Shown here: piece by piece, positions 4,997-60,299 of the stretch
Layout: each line of letters opens with the position of its first letter
Numbering within the stretch: the stretch's first letter is position 1
NCBI GenBank assembly: GCA_009746045.1
Contig: RPFO01000130.1
Span: 767,808 to 831,807, forward strand
Origin: Mesostigma viride
Taxonomy: Eukaryota; Streptophyta; Mesostigmatophyceae; Mesostigmatales; Mesostigmataceae
Direction of reading: 5' to 3'
DNA: 64,000 bases
Notes under the pieces: model-generated
The model's input: only the letters and a program-made list of their open reading frames with translations
Told to the model about the DNA's origin: nothing
The model's database searches: none
Program-made: the position numbers and the translations under genes

Positions 4997-5058
4997 TTGC
5001 ACGTTCGGGACCACACACAAGTACCCTTCCTTTCACCTTGGTGCATGTTAGGACCTGA

Positions 5059-13140: not shown

Positions 13141-13152
13141 CTACTAGTAGTT

Positions 13153-13640
<488 letters not shown>

Positions 13641-30977: not shown

Positions 30978-31106
30978 CAATGTCAATTAATTAATTAATT
31001 AGACTCGTGCTCCCGTTGGGGAGTCACGGAGCATTAACCCTGATGGATGGATGGATGGGTGCAAACAGTCCTACCGGTCTAATCTATCTACATCAGCTAT
31101 CTACAA

Positions 31107-31119
31107 GGTTGTCTCCTTG
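31107..31119 (+). mobile_element. 13-bp 's' micro-insertion with 8-bp TSD
   Basis: GGTTGTCTCCTTG, identical to the end of the 's' family, is flanked by ATCTACAA on both sides (31099-31106 and 31120-31127). The homologous LINE 3' UTR at 58580-58605 lacks the 13 bases, which supports insertion here. Confidence 0.7.
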
Positions 31120-31249
31120 ATCTACAAACATCTATCAACATCAACTCTACCCTAGGGGACCTGTCTGGCGTGCTTCCCGTGTGTTTGCACACGCGGGCGC
31201 TTCCCCACGGGGGGGGGGGGCTCGTTGTCCTCTATATGACCTGGGCCCA

Positions 31250-32985
31250 CTTGGCCTTGCATGTCCATCATCTTTTTCCAAATCACGGAGAGGCCTAGGC
31301 CCCCCATGTCCTCTACTAGCTGTTCTAGCTGTTCTTTGAAGGTGCGGGCCTTGCGGCGTCTAGCATCACGGGGCCCGGCCCACGTCAGGAGGTGCCGGCC
31401 AGGCTGAGCTGGGCGCAGTCCCGCGGGCCGGGGGCCACGTGAGGTGTCTACCTGGCTGGTGCGTGCTAGGTGCCCTACTATAGCTGCAGGCGCCGCTGCT
31501 TAATGGTGCTGGTGATATATGGCATGCCAAGGTACAGGTCCTCATTGCGGACATGAGCAGCATATCCTACTCTGAAAATGGATCGCAGCATGTTGATGAC
31601 CGTGGCGTCCAGCTTGCGGGCCAGGTCGGCGGTGAGGGTCCACGTCTCGGCCCCATACGTAAGAACAGGAAGGACGAGGACCTTAAACAGGTCCTGTTTC
31701 TCGATCTTGCCCAGGGGCTTGCGCCACAGGGCCCGGTATTGGCGTAAAGCGTGCCATGCAGGCGAGGGAGATGCGGTGGTCTGCACATCAGCCTCGCAGC
31801 TGGGAAGCAGGCTGCCCAGCAGCTTGACACGGTCCCGATACAGGACTCGAGAGCCGTCAAGGAGAAAGAGGGCTGGCGGTGGGTGGGTGAGCCCAATCGC
31901 CAGAGCCTGTGTCTTCTTGCTGACCTCAAGCCCCACTGCACGGGCCTCGATAGCCAGGCAGTCAAGCCACGTCTGCACGTGCCCAGTGTACGTCCTCGAA
32001 GAGGGTCGTGTCGTCTGCATAGATGATGTCCGCCGTGCAGCCGAATCTCCGTTTCCGCCCCGCCATGCCAGAAACGGTTGGCAACCTGCACCCCTGGTTC
32101 CCTATAACTATACCCACGATGCGGGCAAATCGCTTGCGCGCCTGAATCATTACGTATTGGACCACATAATGAACAGGTAGGGCGACAGCACGCAGCCCTG
32201 CCACACACCCTTCTGTAAAGGGCACGGTGGCGTGGTCCCGTAGGAAGTGTGCACCGAAGTGGTGGACCCTTCATACAGGTTGCGGATGACAGCAATAAGG
32301 GGCGGGGGATCCGGAGCAGCTCAAGGATGTCCCATAGCGCAGGCCAGAAAACCGAATCGAAGGCTTTGATGAAGTCCACCAGCACAAGGTGCAGAGGGGA
32401 CTCACCAGGCTGAAGGCGTTGCATGCAGTCCCTCCACAAGGCGGCGAGTAGCGAAGAGCGCCTGTACTGTGTTGCGACCTGAACGGAAGCCGTGCTGAGT
32501 CTCGCTGAGGTGACCGTCCAAGGCCGTGCGCAGGCGGTTCAGAATGAGCCGCATGAGAAGCTTGAGGGGGGCACTTTGGATGGCGGATGCACACCCCTCT
32601 GTAGTTGCTGGGGTCGGCTGGCGACCTCTTGTTCTTGTACAGCATCGTGCGAAAACTGTGTTGCCAGGCCGCTGGAGGCGGTTGCGACGACAGCAGAAGG
32701 CGGTTGCAACTTGCAGATATCCCGGAAGAGCAGCATAACACCAGTGTCCTCAAATTCGGCTGCAAGTTTCACAACTGCGGCTGGAATCTCGTGGGAGCCG
32801 GTGGCGGCGGCGTAACGCAGCCGCTGGACCGCCTGAGTCCGTGACCTCGCGAGAGGTGAAAGGAGGCATGTCTGACGGGTCGCCAAGCGGGCCGATCAGC
32901 GGGGGGACTAGGTAGTCCGCCGCTGACCTAGGCGGGGCCGGGGGCCCGGCGGGGCCGCCGACCAAGGCAGTCGGGCAGGCACATG
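31250..32985 (-). pseudogene. LINE reverse transcriptase, multiply frameshifted
   Basis: Fragments in different frames line up as one non-LTR RT. They are FTSREVTD then QRLRYAAATGSHEIPAAVVK, the finger MLYKNKRSPADPSNYRGV, and motif A LVDFIKAFDSVFWPALWD. Motif B remnants surround QGC, the catalytic YADD is in DIIYADDTTLFED, and the thumb and connection hold LFKVLVLPVLTYGAETWTLT, LDATVINMLRSIFRVGY and VRNEDLYLGMPYITSTIKQ. At least four frame changes make it inactive as read. It is the only RT-bearing LINE in the window with the palm region. Clade assignment would need a tree; L1-like is plausible given the ORF1 types nearby. Confidence 0.85.
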
Positions 32986-32997
32986 CAATGTCAAGCC

Positions 32998-33399
32998 ATG
33001 GCGTCGGACCCATTTTTTAGGTTTCTGATGCGTTACATCCAGGTGAGCCATTTAGAAGAGGTTTGTACGGCGTACATGCAGATTGCGGCGCAGGAGCCAA
33101 ACTCTGCGATGTCTTGTGTTCGCGAGCTCCAGATAAAACCGTCGCAAATTCTTTTCGGGGCTGTTCGACCAAATTTTTCATGCATTGAGGAAATCCTGTA
33201 CATTGGCAAACGCGCAGGCAGAGCTCTCGCACGAGGACTTGATCGGCTGCTCCACCGCGCGTACGTACATACCGCCTGTAAGCGGGTTGTTCCCTGCTTT
33301 CTGCGCATGCGGGGTTGGGCGGTTGGCGAGATCACTGATCCCCGCACGCATTGCGCTCCGGTGCAGGCGCACCACTGGTCGATCAACTTCTGGAGCTAA
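32998..33399 (+). CDS. Small hypothetical protein
   Basis: 133 residues from the ATG at 32998 (context GCCATGG). The sequence looks protein-like and amphipathic (QILFGAVRPNFSCIEEILYIGKRAGRALARGLDRLLHRAY) but I recognise no domain. A GTGAGC immediately after codon 15 (MRYIQ|V) could be a splice donor, in which case only the first 15 residues are coding here. The LINE at 30987-32985 is inserted just 12 bases upstream of this ATG, so any promoter has been displaced by 2 kb. Low confidence. Confidence 0.3.
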   Translation: MASDPFFRFLMRYIQVSHLEEVCTAYMQIAAQEPNSAMSCVRELQIKPSQILFGAVRPNFSCIEEILYIGKRAGRALARGLDRLLHRAYVHTACKRVVPCFLRMRGWAVGEITDPRTHCAPVQAHHWSINFWS

Positions 33400-33446
33400 G
33401 TAAGTAAGTACTTGCGTGTCATAAGCAAAGGCATGCCACGGAGTAC

Positions 33447-34952
33447 TATTAATAAATTAATTAAACTCTACGTGCTCCCGTTGGGGAGTCACGGAGCACC
33501 GAAGTGCTTTTAATCCCTGTGTGTGCACAACAGGAGAAAGGGCAGAGACCCCCAGTCTCCTTCATGCCTGCCTAAGGCATGCCACAGCTGCATGCATTCG
33601 GGCGCGCTAGCTTAACGGACACGCTAACGATCCGGCAATCTGTGGGTGCAATAAGACCCATGTGAGCATGGCATAACCTGAGGGAGCGTGGCCAAGGAAT
33701 CTGGTCGATCATAGCCAGGACGTAGCATGGCTGTCTGTACAAGGACTAAGCTATGGCTATGGCTGGTTGTATACCGTGCGTTAGCGATGCACGTGACTAG
33801 TAGGTATGTTGGCACAGCTAGGCAAACATTCTAAGCATGGCTGCCTTAGCGGCAAGGGTTACAAGCTAGGGCTATTAGCTAGTCTAGCCCGCGGGGGGCG
33901 TCCACATCTTGTGGTTGATCATCAGGTCCCCGCCCCTCCAGTGTACCTTGGGCTTCTGGGGGTCCTGCTTATGGCGGAGGTATTCCTGCCACAGGTGACT
34001 CGCGTCGCTGCTGCTCAGTGCTGAGCGGGGGTCAGGTCGTCGTCCAGCGCGTCCAGGTGAGGTCGTGCAACCCCTTGCGAGTTGCGACGGGAGAGGAACC
34101 GCTGCTTGTCCTCACGGGAGGGGAAGGTGAGCGGGACTGGTGGGGGAGCCGCCTTGTCCCGTGAGTGGGGAAGGCGGTGACACCCACACACTTCTACCTC
34201 ACCTACCAGGCCCATGAGGGTAAGGAGCTGGTCCTTGAGCTCGTCGGCAAGGGAGGTTGACGTCTCACCTGGCTTCTGCCAATGGGGGAAACGAGGCAGC
34301 ACCACTCGGCACTCGCGGCGAGCGCGGTCGGTGACCTCCCGCTGCTGGGCCTGGCGGTGGTCTTCCACCTCGAGGGATCCTGGAGCTTCGTGGCGATGGC
34401 GTCGGTGGTTGAGGCGGTCGCTGACCGCAGCAGGTCCGCATAGGAGAGCGGCGGTCCGAGGTCACCAGCATCCTGCCGGGGTGGCTGGGATGCAATGGTG
34501 GCCGTCTGCATGCTCCGCTATCTTCGGGACCTGTGTGGCCAGGGCCTCGGTGATGGCCTCAAGCTTCTTCATGAGCTAGCACGCCGCACTTGCCCTCCAC
34601 CTGGTTAAGGCGAGAGACAAGTGCAGCGTGCGTGTCCGAAGCCTGCGCCGCGGTGTGTAGCGCCGTGAACTGGGGTTGTAGCTTGTGGACGACCCGGCGG
34701 GTTTCCACATTGGAGACCCGGGCCTCGACCGTGTTGAGCGTGGTGTTCAGCGATGTCATCTTCTCGGCCAGGCTGCGGCCAGGTCACGTGCTCCTCCAGC
34801 ACTGCGCGGATGTCATCCTTGCAGAGGGAGTGAGCCGATGGGGCTGCCGGCTGTGCGGGGGCGGGGGCGCTGAGCGCTCTGCTGATGTCGCCGAGGCTGC
34901 GCGCTGGTAGTAGCTGGTCAAGATAAACAGGCGTTGGCGTGGTTCTTCGTTC
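33447..34952 (-). mobile_element. ORF1-only LINE relative, family a, copy 2 (5'-truncated)
   Basis: Minus-strand copy of the element at 43007-45013. It starts inside ORF1 (matching copy 1 from about 43590) and runs through the same 3' UTR (CCCTTTCTCCTG ... CACAGGGATTAAAAGCACTT) to the hairpin and an AATT-rich tail. The ORF1 protein (coiled-coil words such as LNTTLNTVEARVSNVE, then PPLSYADLLRSATASTTDAIATKLQ, CRVVLPRFPH, LTFPSREDKQRFLSRR) is broken by several frameshifts. Its 5' junction carries 40 bases of the 's' family (34953-34992) in the opposite orientation. Confidence 0.85.
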
Positions 34953-35008
34953 GGATTCTCCCGATTTCTGGCCTGCGCTGGTTGTCTCCTTGATGTTGGA
35001 AGACACAA

Positions 35009-36053: not shown

Positions 36054-36059
36054 TCGATG

Positions 36060-37093
36060 GCACGGATGCGCGCCGCCCCTCTCAGATGGACCCCAACAAC
36101 GAAGTTGAAATGTGCCGATCGATCTTCATCACCCGCGGGAAAGGACCTGTCGACGGCCCCCTCGTGACGTGCGACAGTGGTGCATCCTGACTTGCTCCAG
36201 CAGGGGCACGTGAGACATCAGCTCCGCGCCAAGCTCTGGCGTGGTGAGGGTGACCTGGTCAGGTCAGCCATCTGGCGGCGGGAGAGGGGGAGACCTGGGA
36301 ACTGGACAGGTCCGCTGCTTCCTGGAATGGAACCCTGGTAACATCTAGATTGCAGCGTGGGGATGGGCCCCCCAGGGGAAGGGGGCGACAAAAAGAGAAG
36401 GTACTAGTCAGGCACACGACACTTCACCTTTACTGCAGACAGCCTGGGTCTGACAGAAAGAACAGCTCTCTATCTCCCATACCAAGGAAGTGGGTATCAG
36501 TGATGAGTGGGTACTAGAAGAACTCTTGACGCAGGAGTAGCATACTTTCCCAAACAAGTGCTTTGCTGACCCGGAAGTGACATGGGCGCCAGTCAACGCG
36601 GGGCATTCAGCAACGTAGCGTCTGGGTGCCCTGAACTTCCTGTGCTCTACGTTGGCTAAACGTGCTGGCTGAATCCATACTAAATACGCTGGGCCTACCA
36701 CCAAGTACGCTTTAAAAGAGGCTATCATAAACCCTGGCTGCATAACGGCATGACCTGCACCACACGCCCATCTGGGCTCACCCATTTCGCATTTCAGATT
36801 TCCAGAACCAACCGCTTTCGTGGAACAGCGTGCCATGTGCCGCCATACCTAGGCTCCATGAGCGCGGCCCCTCTGAATTGAAGGGGTCAAATGGCAGAGT
36901 TACAGTACAGGGGCAGGCAGGCTCAAGCTCCCACGTAGGACCCAGCGGGCTGGCCAGTGGCCACTGCGCGCCCGCATGGGGTCGGCTTGCTTGGGCGTAG
37001 CTTGGTTGTCTCGTCGGGACAAGGCTTCATGCATTATATACTGTTTTGCTTTGGTAGCACAATGGTACACAGGCATGGAAGGAAAGAAAGGCC
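36060..37093. other. No gene recognised
   Basis: Upstream of the LRR gene. Weak coding-like sequence continues to about 36170 and may be the LRR protein's N-terminal part in another frame. Beyond that nothing is supported. Confidence 0.4.
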
Positions 37094-37733
37094 AACGCAC
37101 CCCCTCACCCCCACCCCACCCCACCCCACCCCACCCCACCCCACCCCACCCCACCCCACCCCACCCCACCCCACCCCACCCCACCCCACCCCACCCCACC
37201 CCACCCACCCCACCCCACCCCACCACCCACCCCACCCCACCCCACCCCACCCCACCCCACACCCACCCCACCCCACCCACCCACACCACCCCACCCCACC
37301 CCACCCCACCCCACCCCACCCCACCCCACCCCACCCCACCCCACCCCACCCCACCCACCCCACCCCACCCCACCCCACCCCACCCCACCCCACCCCACCC
37401 CACCCCACCCCACCCCACCCCACCCCACCCCACCCCACCCCACCCACCCCACCCCACCCCACCCCACCCCACCCCACCCCACCCCACCCACCCCACCCCA
37501 CCCCACCCCACCCCACCCCACCCACCCCACCCCACCCCACCCCACCCCACCCCACCCCACCCCACCCCACCCCACCCCACCCCACCCCACCCCACCCCAC
37601 CCCACCCCACCCCACCCACCCCACCCCACCCCACCCCACCCCACCCCACCCCACCCCACCCCACCCACCCCACCCCACCCCACCCCACCCCACCCACCCC
37701 ACCCCACCCCACCCCACCCCACCCCACCCCCGT
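37094..37733. repeat. CCCCA pentanucleotide array
   Basis: About 640 bp of CCCCA units with scattered 4-bp CCCA variants, about 125 units. The G-rich strand (TGGGG)n is a strong G-quadruplex former. Long HPTPP-type ORFs are periodic artefacts. It does not match the usual algal telomere unit (TTTAGGG or TTTTAGGG). Confidence 0.95.
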
Positions 37734-37739
37734 GGTGAA

Positions 37740-39802: not shown

Positions 39803-42496
39803 ATGGCTTTCAGGCTCGTCGCCTTGACGAGCATTTCGTACTGGTATGGCACTCAGGGGCAGGTTTTCCCGAGCGTTGAACGTATTCTAGATGAACGCTC
39901 TGGCAATCACCTAAATGGCATCAAGCACAATCCCTTGCGCCCCATACCCTGCCATCGTCGACATGGTGCCCGAGTCAGCCCGGCCCTGTGCGTTTATCCA
40001 TCCATTTTCGTGTGTGGAAGAAGAGCACGGCTGTCTCCAGACAATCCCAAGTGGGTGCGCGCGAAGGACAGGGCTACACCTCAGCAGCTCGCGTTGAATA
40101 AGAAGATCGTCGCATGCACGTCGTCCGAGCAGATACTGCAGCTCCTCGAGTCGGCGTTGGAGGAGGGGACGGACCTCAATGGAGTCAACATGGCGACCGC
40201 CGTTTCCCGCTACGCGAGAGTGGCGCGGGGCGACGCGAAGGCCGACCCCCGATTTTCCACGTTTCTGGACCTGGTCTGGGCGGAGATCAGGGAAGCGCCC
40301 GACTCCTTCCAGAGCCGACACCTGTCCAACCTGGCGCACGGGCTGGCCAAACTGGGCGGCCCGGAGGCGGAAAAAGGTCTCGCCGTCCTGGAAACAGAGA
40401 TGCTGCGGCGAGGGTGGCGGGATTTCGACCCCCAGGGTTTCTCCAACACGGCCTGGGGCTTTGCGACGGCTGGCCAGGGCAGCGTGCAGCTCTTCGAGGG
40501 CATCGAGAAGGAGCTCCTCGCGCGAAAGTTTGCCGGTTTCAACCCTCAAAACGCGGCCAACACGCTGTGGGCGTTTGCGACGGCTGGCCGCGGCGGCGCC
40601 GAGTTTTACCATGCAGCCGAGGCCATGGTCGCGCAGAGCGGGCTCGAGGGCTGCAACGCGCAGGACATTGCCAACATCCTCTGGGCGTTCGCGACGGCCG
40701 GGCGCGGGAGCGAGTCGCTCTTCTCGGTGATGGAAGTCATGATCATATCCCGCGGCCTGGACGACTTCACGCCTCAGGGTGTCTCCAACACCATCTGGGC
40801 GTTTGCAAAGGGCGGGTACCGGGGGCCGCGCATCTACGCGGCGGTCGAAGAGGAGGCCCTGGTGGGCGGTCTGTTCGGCTTCAAGCCGCAGAACATTGTC
40901 AACCTCGCGTGGGCGTTTGCGACTGCCTGCATGGGCTCCCCCGCGCTCTTCTCGGTGATCGAGTCTCGGGTCGTTGCGATGGGCACGACCCGGTTCAAGG
41001 CGCAAGAGCTGGCCAACCTGCTCTGGGCGTTTGCGACCGCGGGACACCCTGGCAGGGCGCTCTTTGCCGCCGTGGAGGCCGGGCTTACCCCCGAGTCAAT
41101 GGCGTCGTTCAACCTGCAGAACTGCGCCAACGCGCTGTGGGCGTTTGCGGTCGCAGACAGGTGTCACCGCCCGGTCACGCGCACGCTCATGGACAAGGCG
41201 CTCAGCTATGTCGCGTGGGATATGCCGGTGGAGAACCTGGTCCAGCTGGCGCAGTTTGTGCTGGCGGCAGGGTACACGGCCCACCCTGGTAGGCCTCGCG
41301 GGGACGGGGATGCCCCTGCCTCCCTCCCTGGGCTCTTCAACGGGCATTCTTCCTCACGCAGGGTTGGAAGTTACGCCTCGTCGGAAAGGGTGGGTTCCCC
41401 TAGCTCCAACAACCGCTTGAATGGTGAGAATGGAGGGCAAGCGGCCCATGGCCCTAACCACCAGGCCTCCCACCCGTTGAGTGGGGACAACGGCGGTCAA
41501 GCGCGTGCTACGGCCGGGTACACCTCGCAGGGGGGGGAGCCACACGTTGTCGCCAGAGACCCTGCGGGGGGCAGCAGGGGCCATCCTGTGGGGCGTCGGG
41601 GCGAGGAGGCTGTTTATAGCGGCAGCGCGCGCAACGGGTACCACGTGAAGGGGGCGCGGATCAACGGGAGGGATGTCTCGGCACATGCCGGCGGGGAGGG
41701 ACTGTTGATGATGCCCGCCCGTGGTGACGCAGGTACCGCCGCCATTGCCAGCAGCAGCGGCAGCGCCACCGCCACCGGCAGGGATGTGATAATTGGAAGC
41801 AGTGGAGGCAGCGAAGTCGGCAGCGGCCTAGGCAGCAGTGAAAGCACGAGCAGTAATAGAATTAATGGCAGCAGCAGCGTTGGCGGGGACATTCGCAGGG
41901 AAGGGAGTGGGGAGGGGCGCATGGACAGGGGTAGGGAGGGGCATGGGGAGCTGGAGCAAGACAGGGAGCTTGACGGCATGGCGGCAGCGTTGGTGCTGGA
42001 GGCGGTGCGCACGGCCACGGAGAGGGGTCGTATCCCCTCCCCACCTTCCTCTCGCCTGCACCAGGAGGTGTCCGGCGTGCTAACGGACATGGCCATCCAG
42101 CACACAAACGAGCTGCCACTGTTTGGGGGCGTGTACTATGTGGACATTGCGGTGGCGGGCAAGATCGCGGTGGAGGTGGACGGGCCGTGCCATTTTAGGG
42201 GGGGGCCGCAGGCGCTCTCAGGCGACATCACGTCAACCACGGCGCTCAAGCGGCGGTTGCTGGAACAAGGGGGGTGGACGATCCTCTCTGTGCCCTATTT
42301 CGAGTGGACCATGCTGAGTGACAGCGGTCAGAAGCAGCGGTACATGCGGGGGAAGCTGGTGGGGTGCGGCGCGGGGGCGTTGGTTGGGGGGGTGGCGGCT
42401 GGGGGCGGTGCGAATGGCGCGGGTGGGGCACCCATGCGCCTGCAGGGTGGTGGGGAGGCGAGGAGGTCGCCTGCGGCGGAGCTGGCCCAGGAATAG
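39803..42496 (+). CDS. OPR-type organellar RNA-binding protein with C-terminal RAP domain
   Basis: 897 residues, no intron seen. Octotricopeptide-repeat proteins bind organelle RNAs base by base and control their stability, splicing or translation; the family is greatly expanded in green algae. Residues about 180-460 hold seven or more repeats of 36-38 residues. Each has the hallmark (N/T)xxWAFA: NTAWGFATAG, NTLWAFATAG, NILWAFATAG, NTIWAFAKGG, NLAWAFATAC, NLLWAFATAG, NALWAFAVAD. A Gly/Ser-rich, low-complexity linker of about 240 residues follows. The RAP domain (about 775-855) contains YYVDIAVAGKIAVEVDGPCHF and later LLEQGGWTILSVPYFEW, typical of its nuclease-like fold. The N-terminal 75 residues are Arg-rich with few acids and fit an organelle leader. 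The ATG at 39803 is the first in frame. The RNA target is unknown. Confidence 0.9.
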   Translation: MAFRLVALTSISYWYGTQGQVFPSVERILDERSGNHLNGIKHNPLRPIPCHRRHGARVSPALCVYPSIFVCGRRARLSPDNPKWVRAKDRATPQQLALNKKIVACTSSEQILQLLESALEEGTDLNGVNMATAVSRYARVARGDAKADPRFSTFLDLVWAEIREAPDSFQSRHLSNLAHGLAKLGGPEAEKGLAVLETEMLRRGWRDFDPQGFSNTAWGFATAGQGSVQLFEGIEKELLARKFAGFNPQNAANTLWAFATAGRGGAEFYHAAEAMVAQSGLEGCNAQDIANILWAFATAGRGSESLFSVMEVMIISRGLDDFTPQGVSNTIWAFAKGGYRGPRIYAAVEEEALVGGLFGFKPQNIVNLAWAFATACMGSPALFSVIESRVVAMGTTRFKAQELANLLWAFATAGHPGRALFAAVEAGLTPESMASFNLQNCANALWAFAVADRCHRPVTRTLMDKALSYVAWDMPVENLVQLAQFVLAAGYTAHPGRPRGDGDAPASLPGLFNGHSSSRRVGSYASSERVGSPSSNNRLNGENGGQAAHGPNHQASHPLSGDNGGQARATAGYTSQGGEPHVVARDPAGGSRGHPVGRRGEEAVYSGSARNGYHVKGARINGRDVSAHAGGEGLLMMPARGDAGTAAIASSSGSATATGRDVIIGSSGGSEVGSGLGSSESTSSNRINGSSSVGGDIRREGSGEGRMDRGREGHGELEQDRELDGMAAALVLEAVRTATERGRIPSPPSSRLHQEVSGVLTDMAIQHTNELPLFGGVYYVDIAVAGKIAVEVDGPCHFRGGPQALSGDITSTTALKRRLLEQGGWTILSVPYFEWTMLSDSGQKQRYMRGKLVGCGAGALVGGVAAGGGANGAGGAPMRLQGGGEARRSPAAELAQE

Positions 42497-42589
42497 CAGG
42501 TCCCTTCAATTGATTGATTCCATTAAAGTGAGGTCTGATTCCTGGCAAGTGGATAGCGGTTAGAACCCGAGTTACGCCATTTTTCATTC

Positions 42590-42995
42590 ATTCATTCATT
42601 AATTAAGAAGACAACTCGTTGGGAGCTTATGTAACACATAGCCCTGAGAGGGGGCATATGGTTTCTAACACATTCTGAGCTACAACCTGCAGGTGGGGGG
42701 ATGTAAACCGCCACCTACTCCGGGTGCACAAGGTGCACCTGCACCACCATGATTAAAAATTAAATTAAATTGTAACATATCTCCGTTGGGAGTACATGTA
42801 GCGCATATCCCTGGAATATGTGCTACATGATCTCCCAAATGAGGCATGTTATAATTTATTTTAATTTAATATTAATATCCCTGAGAAGGGACATTTCATT
42901 TTTAATACATTCTGGGCTACTTCCTGCAAGGGTAGGGTGTAAACTACACCTGCTCTGGGTGCACAACGTGCACCGGCACCACTATGTATTCCAGC
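42590..42995 (-). mobile_element. Stacked 3' ends of family b elements
   Basis: Three minus-strand family-b 3' ends lie in series. Each has a version of the b 3' UTR (CTACTTCCTGCAAGGGT and a GGTGCAC ... GTGCACC motif in plus orientation) and a different AT-rich tail: (CATT)n near 42585-42600, TTAAATTAAATT near 42763, and TTTAATTTAATATTAATA near 42860. The pattern fits repeated insertion of an element into the tail of an older relative. They begin only about 95 bp after the stop codon of the OPR gene. Confidence 0.7.
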
Positions 42996-43006
42996 ATGGA
43001 AGGCGC

Positions 43007-45013: not shown

Positions 45014-45024
45014 ATGGAAGGCGC

Positions 45025-46338: not shown

Positions 46339-46691
46339 AGTAATGACTGACTAGCTAGACCTTTTCAGTGGTTTCCCATTTGCGGGTATTTCCTCGTAAA
46401 TGGCGGGGAGAGCGATCGCAGCAATGGTGCTTACCCCTAGACACTCCCGGCCAGAGGCTCGAAACACATGCACGCCCTGATCAAGCTAGCTGTTTCCGGC
46501 CCCACCGTCTAGGTCATCTAGTCGCTCTACACGTAAGCCAGCCATAATTTCAATGCACAAGGCTACACGCTTCCATCACCATTCATATTCATCATCCTGA
46601 ACGACTCGAACACGCGGACAAGATAACGGCAGGCTCGAGCTACCGTGGTCCGGATTCCCCCGATTTCTGGCCTGCGCTGGTTGTCTCCTTG
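46339..46691 (+). mobile_element. 's' element, longest copy, 11-bp TSD
   Basis: 353 bp inserted in family b ORF1 with the perfect TSD ACATCTTCACC (46328-46338 and 46692-46702). It ends CTGCGCTGGTTGTCTCCTTG. No ORF, no A-rich or AT-repeat tail, no obvious Pol III boxes. Presumed SINE-like passenger of LINE machinery. Confidence 0.85.
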
Positions 46692-49033: not shown

Positions 49034-52000
49034 TCATGATAATCCCCGCATGCCCGCCCTCCTGCTGCCAAACGCCGTACCCATGTTGCCTACACCAGAC
49101 GTGACCCCCTGGGCCGGGATTGGTTTCTGCGCCCCACAGTTCCGGTTATACTCCTCGTCCCCCTCCTGGTATTCACAGATCGTGAACCGGGCCGGACCCA
49201 GCCCCGTGCCGCCAGTGCCACCAGGGTTTATGGTCCCCAGGGTGAAGCCGCGCATGCCGGCAGGACGGCCAGCCTGGCTCGGCGATGAGTAGTGCTCCAG
49301 GGAGCGCATCAGGGTGTGCTCAAGGTCCAGCGCATGGCCGCCGTACATGGACCGCCGGTTGAGCGCCCTGCACGGAGAAATAAATAATGAAAGGAGTGGT
49401 GGAATAGATAATGAAAGGCAAAGAGCCTAGCTTCCGCTGTTGTAAGGAACAAGGACAACTGTAAAGAGGTGAGGCGTCCTAGCGTGAACAAGCCTAGCGT
49501 GTCATCCAGAGAAACCGCCAAGCATTGTCAAGAGAAGATGCGGCCATGGGGTGAAGAAACACCATGCATATATAATTCATCCCAACAGGCAAAAAAACGC
49601 TTCAGAATGGAGAACGGACGCGCGCACCCCACCTGAAGTAGCGCATGTTGCCGCCGCCAAACCCGTAGATGGTCACGGCATCGCACATCTTGGCCATGAT
49701 CCAGCTGCTGATGTACCTGGTGGAGGGTCAAGGAAAAAGGAAAGGAAGGGGTGAACAGGGGGGTAAGAGCGTGGCTGGGCATGTCAGATGGTCACGGCGT
49801 CACACATCTTGGCCAGGATCCAGCGGCTGATGTACCTGGTGGAGGGTCAAGGAAAAAGGAAAGGAAGGGGTGAACAGGGGGGTAAGAGCGTGGCTGGGCA
49901 TGTCAGATGGTCACGGCGTCACACATCTTGGCCAGGATCCAGCGGCTGATGTACCTGGTGGAGGGTCAAGGAAAAAGGAAAGGAAGGGGTGAACAGGGGG
50001 GTAAGAGCGTGGCTGGGCATGTCAGATGGTCACGGCGTCACACATCTTGGCCAGGATCCAGCGGCTGATGTACCTGGTGGAGGGTCAAGGAAAAAGGAAA
50101 GGAAGGGGTGAACAGGGGGGTAAGAGCGTGGCTGGGCATGTCAGATGGTCACGGCGTCACACATCTTGGCCAGGATCCAGCGGCTGATGCAGATGGAGGG
50201 TGGAGGGCGAAAAGGCGGGAGTAGAGCAGGGGGTGGTGCCAGGGGTGGGCAGGAGAGGGGCCTTTACAGGGGGGGGGAGGATTGGAATAGAATGGGGAAT
50301 ACAGAGCACAGTACAGAGCACTACAACTTTTTCCTAATCCAACCCCCTTACAGAACCCCAGTACAGACCATCAGTGGTGGCAGATGACAGGGTGAAGTAC
50401 CCACCCGCTGGTGGGCTGTGCGTGCCCGTAGTACGTCCCCCCCGCGCAGGCCAGCCGGTCCCTGTACGCGTGCAGCAGGGTGCGCGCCTTGAGCCAGGTG
50501 GCGGGCTTCATACACACGAGCGACACGCGGCGAGCAGCGTGCGCAGCCCGTAAGTAGTTCTGGATGCGTGTGTGCAGGTCGGGGTAGCACCTGGCGGAGG
50601 GCAACGACACGCCGCCACAGGACGCACAAGCAGGCCAGCAGCAAGGCACACACGCGGGGCCAGCAGCATGGCACACATTGGTGGGAGGGGTCAGCAGCAT
50701 TGTCGTCAGAAAGCAACAAACGTGAAAAGGCTAGCTGCCCAAATCGGAGATTCCGCGGAACACAGAAAGTAAGAAAGCCTAGAAGCTACCAGCAAGAATG
50801 GCCATGAGTGCCGGTCAGGGTAACACCAGGCGGTTGCCATGTAGTAGTATTACGGCACACGGATGGAGACGACGACGTCAGCATTGCTAGTAAGACGCAT
50901 CAGCCGGTCTACATGAGGGCGCAGCAATAGGGAAGCATCAAGTCAACACCAGCGGCCAGGGGAGGAGTCAGGTAGTGGTTCACGTCCGGTCCTGGTCAGA
51001 CTGCAGCGAAGCAATGTAAGAGGGAACCAGCAAGGCAAACATAAGAGGTCACCGGTAACGTAATTGCGAAAGGGCAGCCACAAGGCAAACGTGAGGGGGC
51101 ACGTGCAAGGCAAATGCGAGGGGGCGGCCGCATGAGCATTTCAACCAGTGTGGCGGGTGCGACCAGGTTTGCCACTGGCATCCTGCAACTTGGTTTATAA
51201 AAGCTGGCTGAAGCCTGTCAATACATAGTCACCAAATGGAGGTGCTCCATCCACGTCCTGATCATGAAGGTATAGCACTGGTCATGAAGATATAGCACTG
51301 GTCATGAAGATATAGCACTGATCATGAAGGTATAGCACTGATCATGAAACTATAGCACTGATCATGAAGGTATAGCACTGATCATGAAGGTATAGCGCTG
51401 ATGATGAAGGTATAGCACTGATGATGAAGGTACAGCACTGATCATGAAGGTATAGCACTGATGATGAAGGTATAGCACTGATGATGAAGGTATAGCGCTG
51501 ATGATGAAGGTATAGCACTGATCATGAAGGTATAGCACTGATCATGAAGGTACAGCACTGATCATGAAGGTACAGCACTGATCATGAAGGTACAGCACTG
51601 ATGATGAAGGTATAGCACTGATCATGAAGGTATAGCACTGATCATGAAGGTATAGCACTGATCATGAAGATATAGCACTGATGATGAAGATATAGCACTG
51701 ATCATGAAGATGTATAAGAGCAGGTTGAGGCCATGACCGCCTGCAGGCTGTCACAAATCACCCGCATCCTGCGCGCTACCATGGTCGATGAGCTACAGTG
51801 ACCGGGGCGGGACCTTCCGTCATGACCTATAGTGACCCACCGTCGTGCTACAGTGACCCACCAATGCACTACAGTGACCCACCCGTGCGCTGCAGTGACC
51901 CACCGAGACATGAGCAGGACGACCCCCTCCTCCAACGGGCAGTCCTCCGTGCCGCACGCCAGCATACCCCGCGCCACCGCCAACCCCCTGGCCGCGCCCA

Positions 52001-53267
52001 TGACCGGCCCTAGGGACCTGGCCGTGCTGTACTGGCTGATCCACCCCCGGTTGACCATGCGGACGGTCGTCCGAGCGCCCACGAACGGCGCCAAGTCCTT
52101 ATCATTGTCCCCCGTGGTGGGCGCGCTGTTGTACCGAATGACGGCATCATGGGAGTCAATCGCGGGGCCGAAGCGGGCCTGCAGGAGCGTCGCGCTGGAC
52201 CCGACGAGCGCGCACGACTTGTACCGCCGGCTGGTGAAACGGCTCGAGTCGTCATCCTTTGCGAACATGGAGGCCACGGGGAAGTCAGCATGGGGCAACC
52301 CGCGTGCCGAGGGGAGCGGCTTGCCTGATGAGGAGGACCCCTTGGCGGCGGTGCCGGGGGGGGGGTCCTCGCAGTACTTGCGGGCTGAGTCAGCACCACC
52401 CGGTGCGTCGTCGTCCCCATCATCCCCCTCACCGGTCTCGTCGTCATCACGCGATGCCGGTGGCTTGGATTTCCGACCGGGGTTGCCCTGTGGCCTTGCT
52501 GACGGTTGCATGGACGGTTTATTGCTGAAGCCTGACATGCCGAGGCCGCCGGTCCCGAGGTTGCGCCCGCTGAGACTGCTGCTGCTGCTGCCACCCTGGG
52601 ACCATGCCTGCAGGGTGGGCTGAACTACAGCTGCTGTGGTGGCCTGCTCCATGCCCATTGCACTCATGAATTGTGTTGCTCGAAACGCGGCGTTATTTGA
52701 GTTTGGCACCAGACTAGTGGAGCTGCTGTCAGAGTCTCCCCACACGGCGTCCAATAATGCGGTGGCATCCTGGACTTGTGTGGATGGGGAGCTTCCTGCA
52801 TTCTGGGACACCCCAAATTGGGACTGCTGCAATGCCGACTCCACCTGCTGTGCCGATAGTTGGCCATGGACTTGTTGCGGCATATTCAGCAGCGAACCTG
52901 CCGCTGCCGCGGCTCTCGCGGTCACGTACACGTCGGGGTCCCTGGAACGGTCGCCTCGCGTCAGCAGCGCAGAGCCCGCCACGCTCCCACCCGCTAGTAT
53001 GTCCGACGCGGGCAAGGACGTGGACTCGAACATTGGCAACAATGCCGATACAGACTCGGCAGCAGCGCGGGTAGAAGCGATATCCATATGCTGGCGAAGC
53101 GTCCTGCTCTCCGTGAGCGGGTGGATGGAGGCGACCTGCGCATCCGTTTCATGCACCCAGTAAAAATATGCTACTCTCGCAACGGACACAACCACCAGAA
53201 CTACTATTAACGCGACATAGTCCACCCTGCATGGGCTAGCGGGGATGTTGCCTCCTTGAGGCCCCAT
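49034..53267 (-). CDS. GT29 sialyltransferase-like glycosyltransferase, four exons
   Basis: Exons: 53267-51904, 50590-50405, 49716-49633, 49367-49034 (655 codons). All three junctions are phase 2 with GT..AG sites. GT29 enzymes transfer sialic acid or related sugars from CMP donors in the Golgi. Layout: short cytosolic tail, membrane helix at about 17-38, and a long Ser/Gln/Asp-rich stem. Sialylmotif L is at about 351-397 (CALVGSSATLLQARFGPAID, SHDAVIRYNSAP). Motif S straddles exons 2 and 3 (PTSG, then C528 ten residues after G517, then YGFG). Motif VS is in exon 4 (HALDLE, the HxxxxE pattern, 556-561). The G-to-C spacing in motif S equals that of animal sialyltransferases, which supports the splice choice. 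Donor and acceptor are unknown; algal and plant homologues may use Kdo or other keto-sugars. Introns 1 and 2 hold tandem arrays. Confidence 0.88.
49785..50190 (-). repeat. 119-bp array of decoy sialylmotif-S exons
   Basis: Four tandem copies (units starting about 49785, 49904, 50023 and 50142) lie in GT29 intron 2, upstream of the true exon 3. Each repeats the pyrimidine-rich tract, the acceptor CACCAG and the first 50 or so coding bases (YISRWILAKMCDAVTI). A stop follows at once (ATC TGA) where the true exon continues IYGFGGGN. The first decoy met by the spliceosome (about 50190) lacks the CACCAG acceptor. Confidence 0.92.
51270..51712. repeat. 20-bp minisatellite in GT29 intron 1
   Basis: About 22 units of GGTATAGCACTGATCATGAA with variants at three positions (GATGATG, GGTACAGC, AGATATAG). 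A second small array, an 18-bp TGACCCAC-type repeat, spans 51830-51903 and abuts the exon 1 donor at 51904. Confidence 0.9.
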
Positions 53268-54965: not shown

Positions 54966-55690
54966 TCCTAGGGGAGCTGTCTGGCGTGCTTCCCGTATCA
55001 AAGAGACAACCAGCGCGGGCCAGAAATCGGGAGAATCCGGACCATGGTAGCTCGAGCCTGCCGTTATCTTTTCCGCGTTTTCGAGTCGTTCAGGATGATG
55101 AAGATGAATGGTGATGGAAATGTGTATCCTTGTGCATTGAAATTATGGCTGGCTTACGTGTGGAGCGACTAGATGACCTAGACGGTGGGGCCGGAAACAG
55201 CATGCTTGATCAGGGCGTGTGTTTCGAGCCTAACTGGCCGGGAGTGTCTAGTGGTGAGCACCATTGCTGCGATCGCTCTCCCACCATTTACGAGGAAATA
55301 CCCGCAAATGGAAAACCACTGAAAAGGTCTAGCTAGTCAGTATGTTTGCACACGTGCGGGCGCTTCCCCACGGGGGGGGGGGGCTCGTTGTCCTCTATAT
55401 GACCTGGGCCCACTTGGCCTTGTCCATCGACTTTTTCCAAATCACGGAGAGGCCTAGGCCCCCCATGTCCTCTACTTGCTGTTCTTTGAAGGTGCGGGCC
55501 TTGCGGCGTCTAGCATCACGGGGCCCGGCCCACGTCAGGAGGTGCCGGCCAGGCTGAGCTGGGCGCAGTCCCGCGGGGGGGCCACGTGAGGTGTCTACCT
55601 GGTTGGTGCGAGCTAGGTGCCCTACGAGCTGAGTGCAGGCGCCGCTGCTGGATCGAGATATATTGTTTCCGGCTAGTAGATGCCATGGGG
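54966..55690 (-). mobile_element. LINE C-terminal fragment (minus)
   Basis: Minus-strand LINE sequence: LVGHLARTNQVDTSRGPPAG, RRRKARTFKEQQVEDMGGLG, WKKSMDKAKWAQ, then part of the 3' UTR, interrupted by an 's' copy at 54999-55339. No hairpin or tail follows, so its 3' end is missing, which is unusual for LINEs. It stands head to head with the plus-strand fragment starting at 55693. Confidence 0.8.
54999..55339 (-). mobile_element. 's' element, 341 bp
   Basis: Minus-strand copy nearly co-linear with 46339-46691. Its conserved end is at 54999. Only a 4-bp duplication (GTAT) is visible. The interrupted LINE word is TTCCCGT/GTTTGCACAC, seen uninterrupted at 31168-31187. Confidence 0.8.
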
Positions 55691-55692
55691 GG

Positions 55693-56378
55693 CGTTCCAT
55701 TTTCAGAGTAGGATATGCTGCTCATGTCCACAATGAGGACCTGTACCAGGGCATGCCCTATATCAAAGAGACAACCAGCGCAGGCCAGAAATCGGGAGAA
55801 TCCGGACCATGGTAGCTCGAGCCTGCCGTTATCTTTTCCGCGTTTTTGCCCTATATCACCAGCACCATTAAGCAACGACGCCTGCAGCTAGTAGGGCACT
55901 TAGCTCGCACCAACCAGGTAGACACCTCACGTGGCCCCCCCGCAGGACTGCGACCAGCCCAGCCTGGCCGGCACCTCCTGACGTGGGCTGGGCCCAGTGA
56001 TGTTAGACGCCGCAAGGCCCGCACCTTCAAAGCACAGCTAGTCGAGGACATGGGGGGCCTAGGCCTCTCCGTGATTTGGAAGAAGATGATGGACAAGGCC
56101 AAGTGGGCCCAGGTCATAGAGGACAACGAGCGCCCCCCAGTGGGGAAGCGCCCGCGCGTGCAATCCCGTGGGAGGCACGCCAGATAGCTCCCCTAGGGCA
56201 GCGTGCGGCTGCCTAGATAGATGTTGTAGTTAGAATGCTGTTAGATAGATGTAGTATGTAGCCGATAGATTAGACCGGTAGGACTGTTTGCACCCATCCA
56301 TCCATCCATCGGGGTTAATGCTCCGTGACTCCCCAACGGGAGCACGAGTCTAATTAATTAATTAATTAATTAATTAAT
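55693..56378 (+). mobile_element. LINE 3' fragment (plus) with tail
   Basis: It begins in FRVGYAAHVHNEDLYQGMPY, is interrupted by an 81-bp 's' copy (55766-55846), then continues MPYITSTIKQRRLQLVGHLA to EDNERPPVGKRPRVQSRG and a stop at 56187. The LINE 3' UTR, hairpin (about 56328-56341) and (TTAA)n tail to 56378 follow. This is the most complete LINE C terminus in the window. Confidence 0.88.
55766..55846 (-). mobile_element. 's' element, 81 bp, 12-bp TSD
   Basis: TSD TGCCCTATATCA at 55754-55765 and 55847-55858. Removing insert and one TSD restores the LINE reading GMPYITSTIKQ. Confidence 0.88.
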
Positions 56379-56549
56379 GGGGGGCCTAGGCCTCTCCGTG
56401 ATTTGGAAGAAGATGATGGACAAGACCAAGTGGGCCCAGGTCATAGAGGACAACGAGCCCCCCCCTGTGGGGAAGCGCCCGCGTGTGCAAACCCGCGGGA
56501 GGCACGCCAGACAGCTCCCCTAGGGTAGCGTGATGCTGTTTAGATCGAT
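56379..56549 (+). mobile_element. LINE 3' UTR fragment, left part
   Basis: A second LINE fragment starts right after the tail of the previous one (GGGGGGCCTAGGCCTCTCCG, VIWKKMMDKTKWAQVIEDN). It runs to 56549, where family b is inserted, and resumes at 58561-58765 (GATAGATTAGACCGGTAGGA, hairpin, mixed TTAA/CTTA tail). Confidence 0.85.
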
Positions 56550-56559
56550 GTTTGTAGTT

Positions 56560-58550
56560 GAATTGAATTGAATTGAATTGTAACATAACTCCGTTGGGAG
56601 TATATGTAGCACATAGCCCTTGAGAGGGGGCATATGGCCTATCATACATCCTAAGCTACTTCCTGCAAGGGTGGGGATGTAAAGGACCCTTGCTCTAGGT
56701 GCACCAGGGCACGTGCATCCCCATGATCTTCAAGCTATGCCCAGCGAAGGGGGAGCCTGTCATGGGGGGGAAGATCAGCATAGCTATACAAAGGCTAAAG
56801 CGTGGCTCTCAGCAGAGAGTTACTCCCTGCATGGGCACAACATAACTAAATAAAGCTAGGCATCATCTGGAGTGTGGCTCATCATAGGCACACATGTACA
56901 TGATTAAATAAAGCGTGTGGCTTAGCTGGGATAGTGCCTCTAGGAGGCGTACATGTACATGGCCACGGTCTATCTATTCTACACTACTACTGCTGTATTC
57001 CCCTAAGCTGGGGCGTCTGGAGTCGCTGGGGCCGCGGGGGTCGCCTGCCAGGGCTTGTGGCCGACGTAGATGGCCGCCCCCTTCCAATACACCGGCTGGC
57101 CCGCCTTGGTCTGCCGGAGCTGGAGGTAGGTCGGCCATAGCGCCCGTCGCCGTTGTTGCTGCGCCAGGGTCAGGTCGTCGTCAAGGGTGAAGAGAGTCTT
57201 CTCGAGCCGCTTGCGGCGTCTGAGAAAAGAAATCTTGTCCGCCGGGGTCTTAAAGGTGAGAAGGAGCGGGGGCGGCCCTGCCTTACCCCGCGCGCGGGGA
57301 AGGCGGTGGGCGGCCAGCTTGATCTCACCAGTAAGGCCCATGCGATCAAGGATTTCTCTCTCAAAAGCACGCGCAAGCTTCTCGGAATTCTCACCTTCCT
57401 CCATCTTGAGATTCTTGACAATGACGTTAAGGCTGCGCTTGGCGAGCTCGGCCTCCTCGCGGAGGTCAAGCGTCTGCCGTTGGAGCTGGGCTGCGACGGC
57501 GGAGGTGGTGGAGGTGGTGTGTTGCTTAAGCATGTCCGCCCAGGTGGTGATGGGAGGAGCATCGCCGACCAGGCCAGCCGGGGCTGGCTTGGCGGCAATG
57601 TCCTTCACCGCCTGGGCGGTGAGGCCTGCGGTGTTCTGCAGAACCTCGATAGCGATGGCGTTATCCTTAAGACGCTGGTCGATGTCGCGGAGCTGGGCGG
57701 TGATGGAGTCGGTGGAGGCGGAGGGGGGGGGGTGGAGGCGAGGAGGGTGGCGGTGGCGGTGGGGATGGTGGGGAGCTCAGCAACCAGCTTGCGCACATTG
57801 ACAGCAATGGGCGAAGCGTGCTGGTAGAAGGCGTCGTGGAGGTGGCGGAGGAGGGTGGATTCGGTAACGGGGCAGGGTTGCAAAAGGTCGTCGGCCGAGC
57901 GCTTAGTGATGGTAAAGAGAGCTGCGAGCTGAAGGCGGGGGCGAGGCCAGCCGGCCATATTGGCCGAGGTAGGGGCGTCAGCTGGGCGGGTGGAAAACCG
58001 GCCGTCAGCTCCGTTGCGGAAAAGGTTTCTGGAATGGAACTGCTCGCACAGGGCCAGCAGTGAGGCGTGGGACCCGTAAAACACGAGCTCCAGTAACTTG
58101 GAGCATGACATTTCGAAAAAGGCAAGCCTGTTGGTGTCGAAGGTGGCAAAAAGCCGATCAACGTCAAAATCTCGCTCAGACCAGCCAGGTTCGTCTGAGC
58201 GACTGCGCTTGGGATCAGGCGAGGCTGAAGGCGAGGCAGGAAGCCCGGGAGGGGGCTGGGCGACTACCAGTGCGCGACTAGTGTCACTGCCGCCTGCCGG
58301 ACCTGATGGCGAAGCTGCAGCCGGAGCTGCAGACGTATTTTCATTGCCGAGCGCAGCCGTCAGGCTGCGTTGCGTCGATGGGCGTTTGCTCATCGTATAT
58401 TGCGTAATAGCGTCGGAAAATTATATCAGCATGTGCGTCTTAGAAAGACGAAGCGATTGTGATATTCACGACTAAATTCGGTGCTCAAACGTGAAAGTTA
58501 TGAGCTCCGCCGTCAGCCATGGCTACCTCGTGGCTCGTGGCTCGTGGCTC
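56560..58550 (-). mobile_element. ORF1-only LINE relative, family b, full length
   Basis: 1991 bp in minus orientation with a perfect 10-bp TSD GTTTGTAGTT (56550-56559 and 58551-58560), inserted in a LINE 3' UTR. Layout: leader with GAGCCACGAG repeats, GCCATGGCTGACGGCGGAGC and AAGACGCACATGCTGATATA; one ORF1 gene (58393-57003); a 3' UTR of about 440 bp; a CTCCCAACGGAG hairpin; and a tail of (GAATT)n units. No RT or endonuclease. Confidence 0.92.
57003..58393 (-). pseudogene. ORF1 protein of family b
   Basis: Starts at the ATG at 58393 (MSKRPSTQRSLTAALGNENT). The frame changes once inside a run of C residues (plus-strand G run at about 57721-57731). After the change it reads DSITAQLRDIDQRLKDNAIA, VKDIAAKPAPAGLVGD, TTWADMLKQHTTSTTSAVAA, LAKRSLNVIVKNLKMEEGEN, LARAFEREILDRMGLTGEIK, LTFKTPADKISFLRRRKRLE, DDDLTLAQQQRRRALWPTYL, VYWKGAAIYVGHKPW and a stop at 57003. 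The second half aligns by eye with family a ORF1 (WADML/YADLL, DDDLT.AQQQ.RR.LWP.YL, VYW.G). The N-terminal halves differ. L1 ORF1p-like RNA-binding protein. The homopolymer break may be a sequencing error. Confidence 0.85.
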
Positions 58551-58560
58551 GTTTGTAGTT

Positions 58561-58765
58561 AGTGATGCTGTTTTGATAGATGTTGTAGGTAGCTGATGTA
58601 GATAGATTAGACCGGTAGGACTGTACTACATGTTTGCACCCATCCATCCATCCATCGGGGTTAATGCTCCGTGACTCCCATGCAACGGGAGCACGAGTCT
58701 AATTACTTACTTAATTACTTACTTACTTACTTAATTAATTAATTAATTAGTTAGTTAGTTAATTA
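58561..58765 (+). mobile_element. LINE 3' UTR fragment, right part with tail
   Basis: Continuation of 56379-56549 beyond family b. The hairpin has a small insertion (GACTCCCATGCAACGGGAGC). The tail is a mixture of TAAT, TACT and TAGT units, unlike the pure TTAA tails elsewhere. Confidence 0.8.
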
Positions 58766-58771
58766 ATATGG

Positions 58772-58970
58772 TTTCCGGCCCCACCGTCTAGGTCATCTAG
58801 TCGCTCTACACGTAAGCCAGCCATAATTTCAATGCACAAGGATACACATTTCCATCCCCATTCATATTCATCATCCTGAACGACTCGAACACGCAGACAA
58901 GATAACGGCAGGCTCGAGCTACCATGGTCTGGATTCTCCCGATTTCTGGCCTGCGCTGGTTGTCTCCTTG
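58772..58970 (+). mobile_element. 's' element, 199 bp
   Basis: Begins inside the longest copy (TTTCCGGCCCCACCGTCTAG) and ends GGTTGTCTCCTTG. ATATGG flanks both ends (58766-58771 and 58971-58976). Confidence 0.8.
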
Positions 58971-59222
58971 ATATGGCATGCCAAGGTACAGGTCCTCATT
59001 GCGGACATGAGCAGCATATCCTACTCTGAAAATGGATCGCAGCATGTTGGTGACCGCGCCGTCTAGCTTGCGGGCCAGGTCGGCGGTGAGGGTCCACGTC
59101 TCGGCCCCGTACGTAAGAACAGGAAGGACGAGGACCTTGAACAGGCCGGTCCTGTTTCTCGATCTTGCCCAGGGGCTTGCGCCACAGGGCCCGGTATTGG
59201 CGTAACGCGTGCCAGGCAAGGA
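58971..59222 (-). mobile_element. LINE RT thumb fragment
   Basis: Minus-strand YANTGPCGASPWARSRNRTG and LFKVLVLPVLTYGAETWTLT, LDGAVTNMLRSIFRVGY, VRNEDLYLGMPY, cut at the junction with the 's' copy. Confidence 0.8.
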
Positions 59223-59350
59223 GGGGGGTTAATTAACGTGTGGTAGGGTTTTCTAGATTAGATCAGATTATAGAGTTAGCTTAGTTCGGTTTCGCGGCTT
59301 CGCCCACCTCCATCCATCCAGCAAGGAATATGTGCAACATGATCGCCCAT

Positions 59351-59425
59351 CCATCCATCCATCGGGGTTAATGCTGCGTGACTCCCCAACGGGAGCACGA
59401 GTCTAATTAATTAATTAATTAATTA
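59351..59425 (+). mobile_element. LINE tail-only insertion, 75 bp, 12-bp TSD
   Basis: Only the last 75 bases of the LINE (CATC units, hairpin CTCCCCAACGGGAG, TTAA tail), flanked by ATGATCGCCCAT (59339-59350 and 59426-59437). The target is itself a family-b-like 3' end (GTCATGTTATAATTTAATTT follows). Confidence 0.92.
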
Positions 59426-59695
59426 ATGATCGCCCATGAACGTCGGAGTCATGTTATAATTTAATTTAAACTAGTAGAATAATCATTATTTTGGGGTGCC
59501 AAAGCTGGAAAAAATTTTAGCTGGGGCATTTAGAGGAAATTGTATTGAAACATGCAAAATGATGCACCGATATTGTCCTAGGCAGAATGTGTCATAAGTA
59601 GCGTCTTTTGCTTTTTTTAGCTCAACACCGGCGTGTAATTGGGTATTCCACCCTCAACCAGTGGTGGGATGGACCCCCATACACCCTATTTACAT

Positions 59696-59737
59696 CAAGG
59701 AGACAACCAGCTAGCGCAGGCCAGAAATCGGGAGAAT
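59696..59737 (-). mobile_element. 's' element, 42 bp, 11-bp TSD
   Basis: TSD CCTATTTACAT at 59685-59695 and 59738-59748. The insert is the last 42 or so bases of the family with a 4-bp internal duplication (AGCTAGCGC for AGCGC). Confidence 0.9.
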
Positions 59738-60137
59738 CCTATTTACATGCTAAAATCATCTCTTGGGTACCCCCAGGTCAGCAGTGCATGATATTAAATA
59801 ATATGGCTTCAGGGGTGCTGGCATGGGACCCTCATGGCTGGACAGTGCTTCGACCCTTTACGAAGGCAGCTCTGGATGCAAAAATTGTGGGTGCAACACG
59901 ATGGGCGTCGCATGGCCCAGGCATGATGGCATCCAGGTGGTTGACGATTCACTCAACAGTCCCACTGGCTGACTCCATAAGTCAATCGAGAGTATCACGC
60001 CAGCCAGATGCCTGCCTAAGCACGCATACACACAAACACACACATTCACACGCCGGTCCGACCAATACTGTTGCCCGGCACGCCGACAAGATAGCCTACA
60101 CGAAGGGGAGCCTGGATATAACATTTATATTCATACA

Positions 60138-60165
60138 TTTCTGGCCTGCGCTGGTTGTCTCCTTG
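60138..60165 (+). mobile_element. 's' element, 28 bp
   Basis: TTTCTGGCCTGCGCTGGTTG followed by TCTCCTTG, flanked by ATACA on each side (60133-60137 and 60166-60170). The TSD is short, so support is moderate; the 28-base identity is the main evidence. Confidence 0.75.
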
Positions 60166-60299
60166 ATACAAAACGGAGTTGTCAGGAGTGAGCAAGCGGA
60201 TTCGATCCGGCGTCGCCAAGGCCCAGACCGCCGGGATCCCAACGCCGCTGTCATTCTCCACCATCCAGCGCACCGGAAACCTTAGTGCTCAGGTCCAAG

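Follow-up and report, generated by a model that had tools for sequence, protein, structure and literature searches.

A 64-kb stretch of the genome of the green alga Mesostigma viride (G000:C1513:767808-831807; hereafter the window) carries copies of one sequence that all finish at the same 3′ end, begin at different points, and can be as short as 13 bp. They were very probably made by target-primed reverse transcription (TPRT) at ATA(T), as 5′-truncated insertions of a Penelope-like element (PLE) whose GIY-YIG-type endonuclease is N-terminal. An original prediction, made from the window alone, had described eight copies as target-primed insertions. It proposed plotting insert lengths, testing the flanks for target-site duplications (TSDs) and looking for empty sites. 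A fixed 3′ end, staggered 5′ ends, an excess of TSDs and paralogous empty sites all bear out its central claim.

A fixed 3′ end and staggered 5′ ends

The family is abundant in the 439.9 Mb genome that was searched. The sequence GGTTGTCTCCTTGAT has 7344 exact copies and GCGCTGGTTGTCTCCTTG has 5631, with none for either reversed control. Insert lengths were taken from the first 69 of 100 listed genome matches of GCGCTGGTTGTCTCCTTG, which lie on contig C1 at 68 loci. After two duplicates were dropped, 67 distinct copies remained and were aligned from the 3′ end to a single copy, L039. Inserts below 18 bp fall outside this sample because the sampling word requires 18 bp. The resulting length plot has one fixed 3′ end and staggered 5′ truncation, with a median insert of 152 bp: 28 copies of ≤57 bp, three of 58–127 bp, 22 of 128–310 bp and 14 of >310 bp, five of which extend beyond the fetched stretch. 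All 7 BLAST matches to the parent element in the window (E ≤1e-6) reach a single 3′ terminus, to within 1 nt, and so do 29 of 54 incidental matches; the two 13-bp window copies are too short for BLAST.

This common terminus bears on the idea that DNA was copied segmentally or in tandem and that no reverse transcription was involved. Some loci were indeed duplicated as DNA: L129, L130 and L167 share flanks, L061 and L068 duplicate other copies, and many segmental duplications are reported in a genome study (PMC6947507). Such copying would not explain the shared 3′ terminus of the window and incidental matches, the TSDs or the ATA(T) target, and we give it almost no credence as an account of the family.

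A second alternative is a short interspersed nuclear element (SINE) of ∼350 bp mobilised by an unrelated long interspersed nuclear element (LINE). Two window copies of 341 and 353 bp, with starts ∼12 bases apart, would suit it. When the 353-bp copy was used as a genome query, matches among the best 40 of 1699 candidates scored extended upstream with common sequence. Compared with L036, 21 of 28 other loci share >100 bp of this upstream sequence, six share less and one shares nothing, while L020 and L021 have 1.43 kb in common that runs into reverse transcriptase (RT) coding sequence. The 67 copies show no length peak near 350 bp. A SINE is very improbable and was rejected, as copies continue into an RT gene and no defined 5′ end appears around 350 bp.

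Several copies are irregular. Six long ones (L132, L136, L137, L145, L147 and L149) have 2–4 additional bases at nearly the same position just 5′ of GTCTCCTTG, perhaps from slippage early in reverse transcription. Others (L094, L098, L165 and L170) lie inside or adjoin further copies of the same element, for example at its own ATAATTTCAA.

Target site and target-site duplications

Directly 3′ of the element, the 67 copies have A in 66, T in 62, A in 58 and T in 43, which defines the ATA(T) target. Exact TSDs were sought near the aligned 5′ boundary of the 61 copies with enough flank (six were dropped), with downstream flanks swapped between loci as the control. TSDs of ≥8 bp occur in 14 of 61 copies against 0.5% of controls, those of ≥6 bp in 18 against 2.5%, and those of ≥5 bp in 23 against 8.6%. 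These figures come from the widest search range; narrower ranges gave fewer real and fewer control matches.

Very short inserts were then read individually. The pattern VGGTTGTCTCCTTGAT, which marks copies truncated inside these 13 bases or at their edge, together with longer copies mutated there, has 450 places in the genome and none in the control. Since 13 of 50 places read resemble mutated longer copies, perhaps ∼330 of the 450 truly retain ≤13 bp, by extrapolation. Of the 50 loci, 44 have distinct 3′ flanks and 34 remain after longer-looking copies are removed. In this set, TSDs of ≥8 bp flank 13 of 34 inserts (controls 0.14%) and those of ≥5 bp flank 25 of 34 (controls 8.1%). The same numbers speak to the view that short inserts are longer insertions later shortened by deletion. 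In the single strain studied, that history could apply to any individual copy, but each deletion must end exactly at the TSD, and a perfect TSD of ≥8 bp directly abuts 13 of the 34 inserts of ≤13 bp. As a general explanation, later deletion is highly unlikely.

The original prediction spoke of insertions as short as 13 bp; inserts of that size are real, but 13 bp is not the lower limit. The word VGTCTCCTTGATA occurs 313 times in the genome against six in its control, a count that includes tandem arrays and mutated long copies. Twenty of these places, chosen outside two arrays, were read; 11 are long copies by eye, and four (L133, L138, L142 and L148) have a 10–16 bp insert, partly with additional bases, within a 9–13 bp TSD. 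The cleanest, L148, holds GTCTCCTTG plus one base between copies of ATAGGCAAG.

Still shorter inserts came from a scan of 348,570 bases (131 loci plus the window). An unfiltered TSD scan was swamped by tandem arrays, and the counts given here use array and AT filters. Outside full 13-mers and arrays, CTCCTTG occurs 72 times, 18 times with AT next, and four of these 18 have a TSD of ≥8 bp. The 139 permutations of its letters occur 4701 times, 230 times with AT next, and never with such a TSD; unfiltered, this control was array-dominated and gave 37 for the 139 permutations and five for the real word. The four inserts have net lengths of 7 bp (L041-:188, and L104:2313 with TSD ATAGAACTGAT) and 8 bp (L087:547, and L129:643 with a 21-bp TSD and an empty paralogue at L037:2613-2543). 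A genome search anchored on the target and agnostic to the insert, ATATGGTTG-N(3-33)-ATATGGTTGGGG, returned six places. CTCCTTG terminates three of their inserts, one with a net length of 8 bp; two others end in ATCAGA and one is CTTC. Small inserts that lie between TSDs and end in ATCAGA before ATA(T) are seen at L074 (-) 719, L055 (-) 464, G000:C667:2639054 and G000:C2108:41844, and perhaps represent another family that shares the target but has its own fixed 3′ end.

Empty sites

Empty sites, defined as paralogues that lack the insert and have one copy of the TSD, were searched among the sequences fetched for this analysis. A first search of the nine window sites recovered two (for the copies at 54999 and 55764), and a second search of 29 sites recovered six (31107, L129:643, L079-:800, L112, L071 and L055), so that three of the nine window copies have an empty counterpart. 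These counts exclude own-flank matches (L087, L079+, L041+ and the first L129 row), self-matches of 31107 and 12744, and a 75% match of 46339.

5′ joints

Forty-nine TSD-bearing joints were listed and 37 were scored for microhomology between the 5′ end of the insert and the target. Fourteen have none, whereas seven share 1 bp, eight 2 bp, four 3 bp, one 4 bp, two 5 bp and one 19 bp; the expected shares are 75% for 0 bp, 19% for 1 bp, 4.6% for 2 bp, 1.3% for 3 bp and 0.3% for 4 bp. Shared bases are counted within the TSD lengths. By a manual tally, microhomology of ≥1 bp accompanies 11 of 14 inserts of ≤50 bp and three of 12 inserts of >80 bp. The tally omits two artefacts, namely window position 13991 in a tandem array and L094, where the 19-bp ‘microhomology’ reflects a nested self-insertion. 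It also omits eight scored sites selected by the 13-mer pattern, because that pattern favours GG joints. A similar split between annealing and direct 5′ joining is described for LINE inserts in PMC4245944.

The parent element

The RT coding sequence upstream of the tail yields a 231-aa piece with 27 protein relatives, and P0001 and P0002 (EukProt Mesvir1 names) are 93 and 95% identical. In all, 1179 RT relatives were found among 8000 sequences scored for alignment. Longer relatives carry ..PKLHKTPY.. N-terminal to the palm, and an LHKTP-type motif also occurs in a frame at L172; we take such a motif before the palm to be PLE-like. A fold model of the RT (mean predicted local distance difference test score, pLDDT, 60.6; 15 sequences in the alignment) has Tetrahymena and human telomerase as its two best PDB matches (E 4.4e-3 and 3.8e-2), with no match below E 0.001. 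Pfam placed RVT_1 below the cut-off in eight of nine RT relatives and found none in the ninth, P0008.

The 5′ part of L039 (2730 bases, full length, 96%) has 37 matching places besides L039 among the best 40 of 473 candidates, and L172 lies in one of them. The L172 frame at 1452-3377 (641 aa) contains IYAIYNRRYPQRIYVGQTQRDAWTRFQEH at aa 91-119, a GIY-YIG-like motif whose pattern recurs in four of 100000 shuffles. It is followed in frame by an RT N-terminal region, which over 297 columns is 27% identical to P0061 (E 4e-23). The endonuclease motif thus precedes the RT in L172, and the regions have the same order in L039, where the broken endonuclease piece has no relatives at E 0.001. Differences between L039 and L172 number 15, 7 and 17 by codon position, which may be a weak sign of past coding constraint.

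In L039, a ∼213-bp copy of the tail lies directly 5′ of the body, with ATACAT flanking the combined unit. Tail and body are joined at ATATTAG... in L039, L172 and L175. A long retroelement with an apparently telomerase-like RT, an upstream GIY-YIG-like motif and a repeat of its 3′ tail ahead of the body fits a PLE with an N-terminal endonuclease. A conserved 3′ hairpin was not supported (z-scores of -1.00 to +1.30 against shuffles over four stretches).

A composite type also occurs, in which the PLE tail and endonuclease frame are followed by unrelated sequence that contains a gag-like frame with a CCHC zinc knuckle (L172 4076-5149; also L175 and L176). Matches spaced 4552 bp apart, as in tandem arrays, on C1542 (three) and C307 (two) belong to this type (G000:C1542:83776-95579 and G000:C307:3686-10937); on C1513 the tail is at both ends.

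Several results weigh against a PLE parent or against its proposed mode of insertion. A Pfam search of the L039 and L040 pieces returned no RT, and one of the 641-aa frame returned no GIY-YIG. Every PDB fold match is above E 0.001 and comes from a model with pLDDT 60.6. Endonuclease and RT share one open frame in no copy read, and because the L172 frame exits the PLE before the palm, the whole protein is likewise open in none. A hammerhead ribozyme (Rfam) was absent up to E 1 from L036, L039, L040, L172, L175 and L176; the remaining weak Rfam matches in these loci scored far below their gathering thresholds and were disregarded. An exact TSD of ≥5 bp is absent from 38 of 61 sampled copies, and a clear one from two of nine in the window; the microhomology trend comprises 14 short and 12 long joints only. 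The missing TSDs are likely due to old copies, blunt joins and target deletions.

An alternative is the same TPRT outcome with a parent that is not a PLE, such as a non-LTR (long terminal repeat), LINE-type or other RT element of similar domain layout. Neither domain is recognised by Pfam in the parent pieces, the fold evidence is weak and no hammerhead ribozyme was found. Telomerase chains nonetheless take the top two places in the fold search, the GIY-YIG-like motif is rare in shuffles and the tail is repeated before the body, and we judge a non-PLE parent unlikely.

Copies in the window

Nine window sequences match GGTTGTCTCCTTG with ≤1 mismatch, against a mean of 0.15 and a maximum of two in 100 shuffles. 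Aligned at their common end, they agree back to differing points and then stop. All eight copies of the original prediction are present, with one end shared and the other variable, but a ninth of 13 bp had been overlooked (12744-12756, minus strand), and two copies end in the variant CTCTTTG. A letter-by-letter check found exact TSDs of ≥8 bp in four of nine copies and of 4–6 bp in three, with none clear in two.

Two copies are 13-bp footprints. The plus-strand copy of GGTTGTCTCCTTG at 31107-31119 lies between 8-bp TSDs (ATCTACAA at 31099-31106 and 31120-31127) and has empty paralogues in L026 and L114. The minus-strand footprint at 12744 has no clear TSD, and an empty paralogue was looked for and not found. 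A footprint of ∼40–46 bp at 34953-34992 (plus), which BLAST takes back to 34947, also lacks a clear TSD. The 28-bp footprint at 60138-60165 (plus) has the 5-bp TSD ATACA, and the 42-bp footprint at 59696-59737 (minus), with AGCT-like additional bases close to its end, has the 11-bp TSD ATGTAAATAGG.

Longer copies include the 353-bp genome query at 46339-46691 (plus; 11-bp TSD ACATCTTCACC) and a 199-bp truncated copy at 58772-58970 (plus; 6-bp TSD ATATGG), for which an empty paralogue was looked for and not found. The two CTCTTTG variants are on the minus strand. One, of 341 bp at 54999-55339, lies within another repeat, with the 4-bp TSD ATAC and an empty paralogue at window 31226-31151. The other, of 83 bp, occupies 55764-55846, beginning at 55764 and not at the predicted 55766; its TSD, ATATAGGGCA, is 10 bp rather than 12, while the TSD lengths predicted at 46339, 59696 and 31107 were correct. 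An empty paralogue of this copy lies in L116.

Elsewhere in the window, a 1255-aa frame at 21855-25622 (minus) with protease, RT, RNase H and integrase domains is an LTR retrotransposon polyprotein. A frame at 39803-42496 (plus) has RAP/FAST-like domains, and one at 51702-53267 (minus) matches glycosyltransferase family 29 (sialyltransferase). Long tandem arrays with units of ∼9–44 bp occupy 3514-5000, 8622-9593, 13080-14100, 37021-37700, 51178-51817 and 63057-63892, and several overlap long frames on both strands.

Relation to known elements

The closest known elements are presumably the N-terminal GIY-YIG PLEs of the Chlamys/Naiad type, which share a putative telomerase-type RT relation, a putative endonuclease motif upstream of the RT and a green-lineage host. 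We know of no ultra-short fixed-end footprints for these elements. A hammerhead ribozyme in the PLE pseudo-LTR is common but not universal. Canonical PLEs (Penelope, Poseidon PAc of Anolis and the Adineta Pen families) resemble the algal element in their pseudo-LTR or partial tandem layout, short TSDs, AT-rich target and fixed cDNA start, according to PMC11167929 and PMC3846280. They differ in their C-terminal endonuclease, in the hammerhead of PAc and in an optional 30–40 bp ‘tail’. Insertions of L1 and ZfL2 share the fixed 3′ end, 5′ truncation, TSDs and annealing or direct 5′ joining (PMC4245944 and PMC2666801), but LINEs use a different enzyme class and, unlike them, the algal element has no poly(A). 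A figure legend of PMC6947507 lists PLEs for Mesostigma. In the open-access literature searched, which left most subscription papers outside its scope, no description of this family or of 7–60 bp footprints was found. The element is probably a new PLE family.

A model for aborted insertion

We infer the enzymology (nick, priming, cDNA start and early stop) from the products. The endonuclease would nick before ATA(T), the target motif observed, and the DNA 3′ end exposed in this way would serve as primer for reverse transcription from a single fixed position, either at CTCCTTG or beside it. In Anolis, a canonical PLE cleaves AT-rich DNA and initiates cDNA at set positions inside its RNA without target homology (PMC11167929). 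By this precedent, CTCCTTG may mark where synthesis begins within a longer RNA rather than the RNA end; direct recognition of the 3′ end, as originally proposed, would be an extrapolation from the same products. Synthesis often halts early (28 of 67 copies of ≥18 bp are ≤57 bp), conceivably because the enzyme has yet to become processive or is displaced by repair. As to the cause of these stops, the 3′ RNA folds no better than shuffles. The cDNA end would then join the upstream target strand, mostly via 1–4 bp of microhomology for short products and mostly without it for long ones. Joining would yield TSDs of ∼4–25 bp, with net 7–10 bp products persisting as footprints.

Early abortion may be a distinct and frequent outcome of TPRT, with an unstable phase of ∼60 nt during which nascent cDNA, even of 7–10 nt, is captured by the upstream strand via microhomology. 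We hold this tentatively, as a proposal somewhat short of even likelihood. The ATCAGA-ending inserts at the same ATA(T) sites hint that early abortion is general.

Little is understood of when TPRT synthesis halts and how the free end is then joined, and the products recovered in laboratory assays are long. De novo LINE assays place their marker in the 3′ untranslated region (PMC2666801), so they presumably cannot recover inserts of 7–60 bp. Here, a single genome holds natural products by the thousand, of many lengths down to 7 bp and with joints that can be read, so that one can measure directly how short a joinable cDNA may be and how microhomology is used. If the model is correct, tail-less elements would expose a hidden class of insertion mutation, of tens of bases or fewer, that is missed with poly(A)-tailed elements and by annotation software. 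The footprints also caution that small indels with flanking repeats can be retroelement scars.

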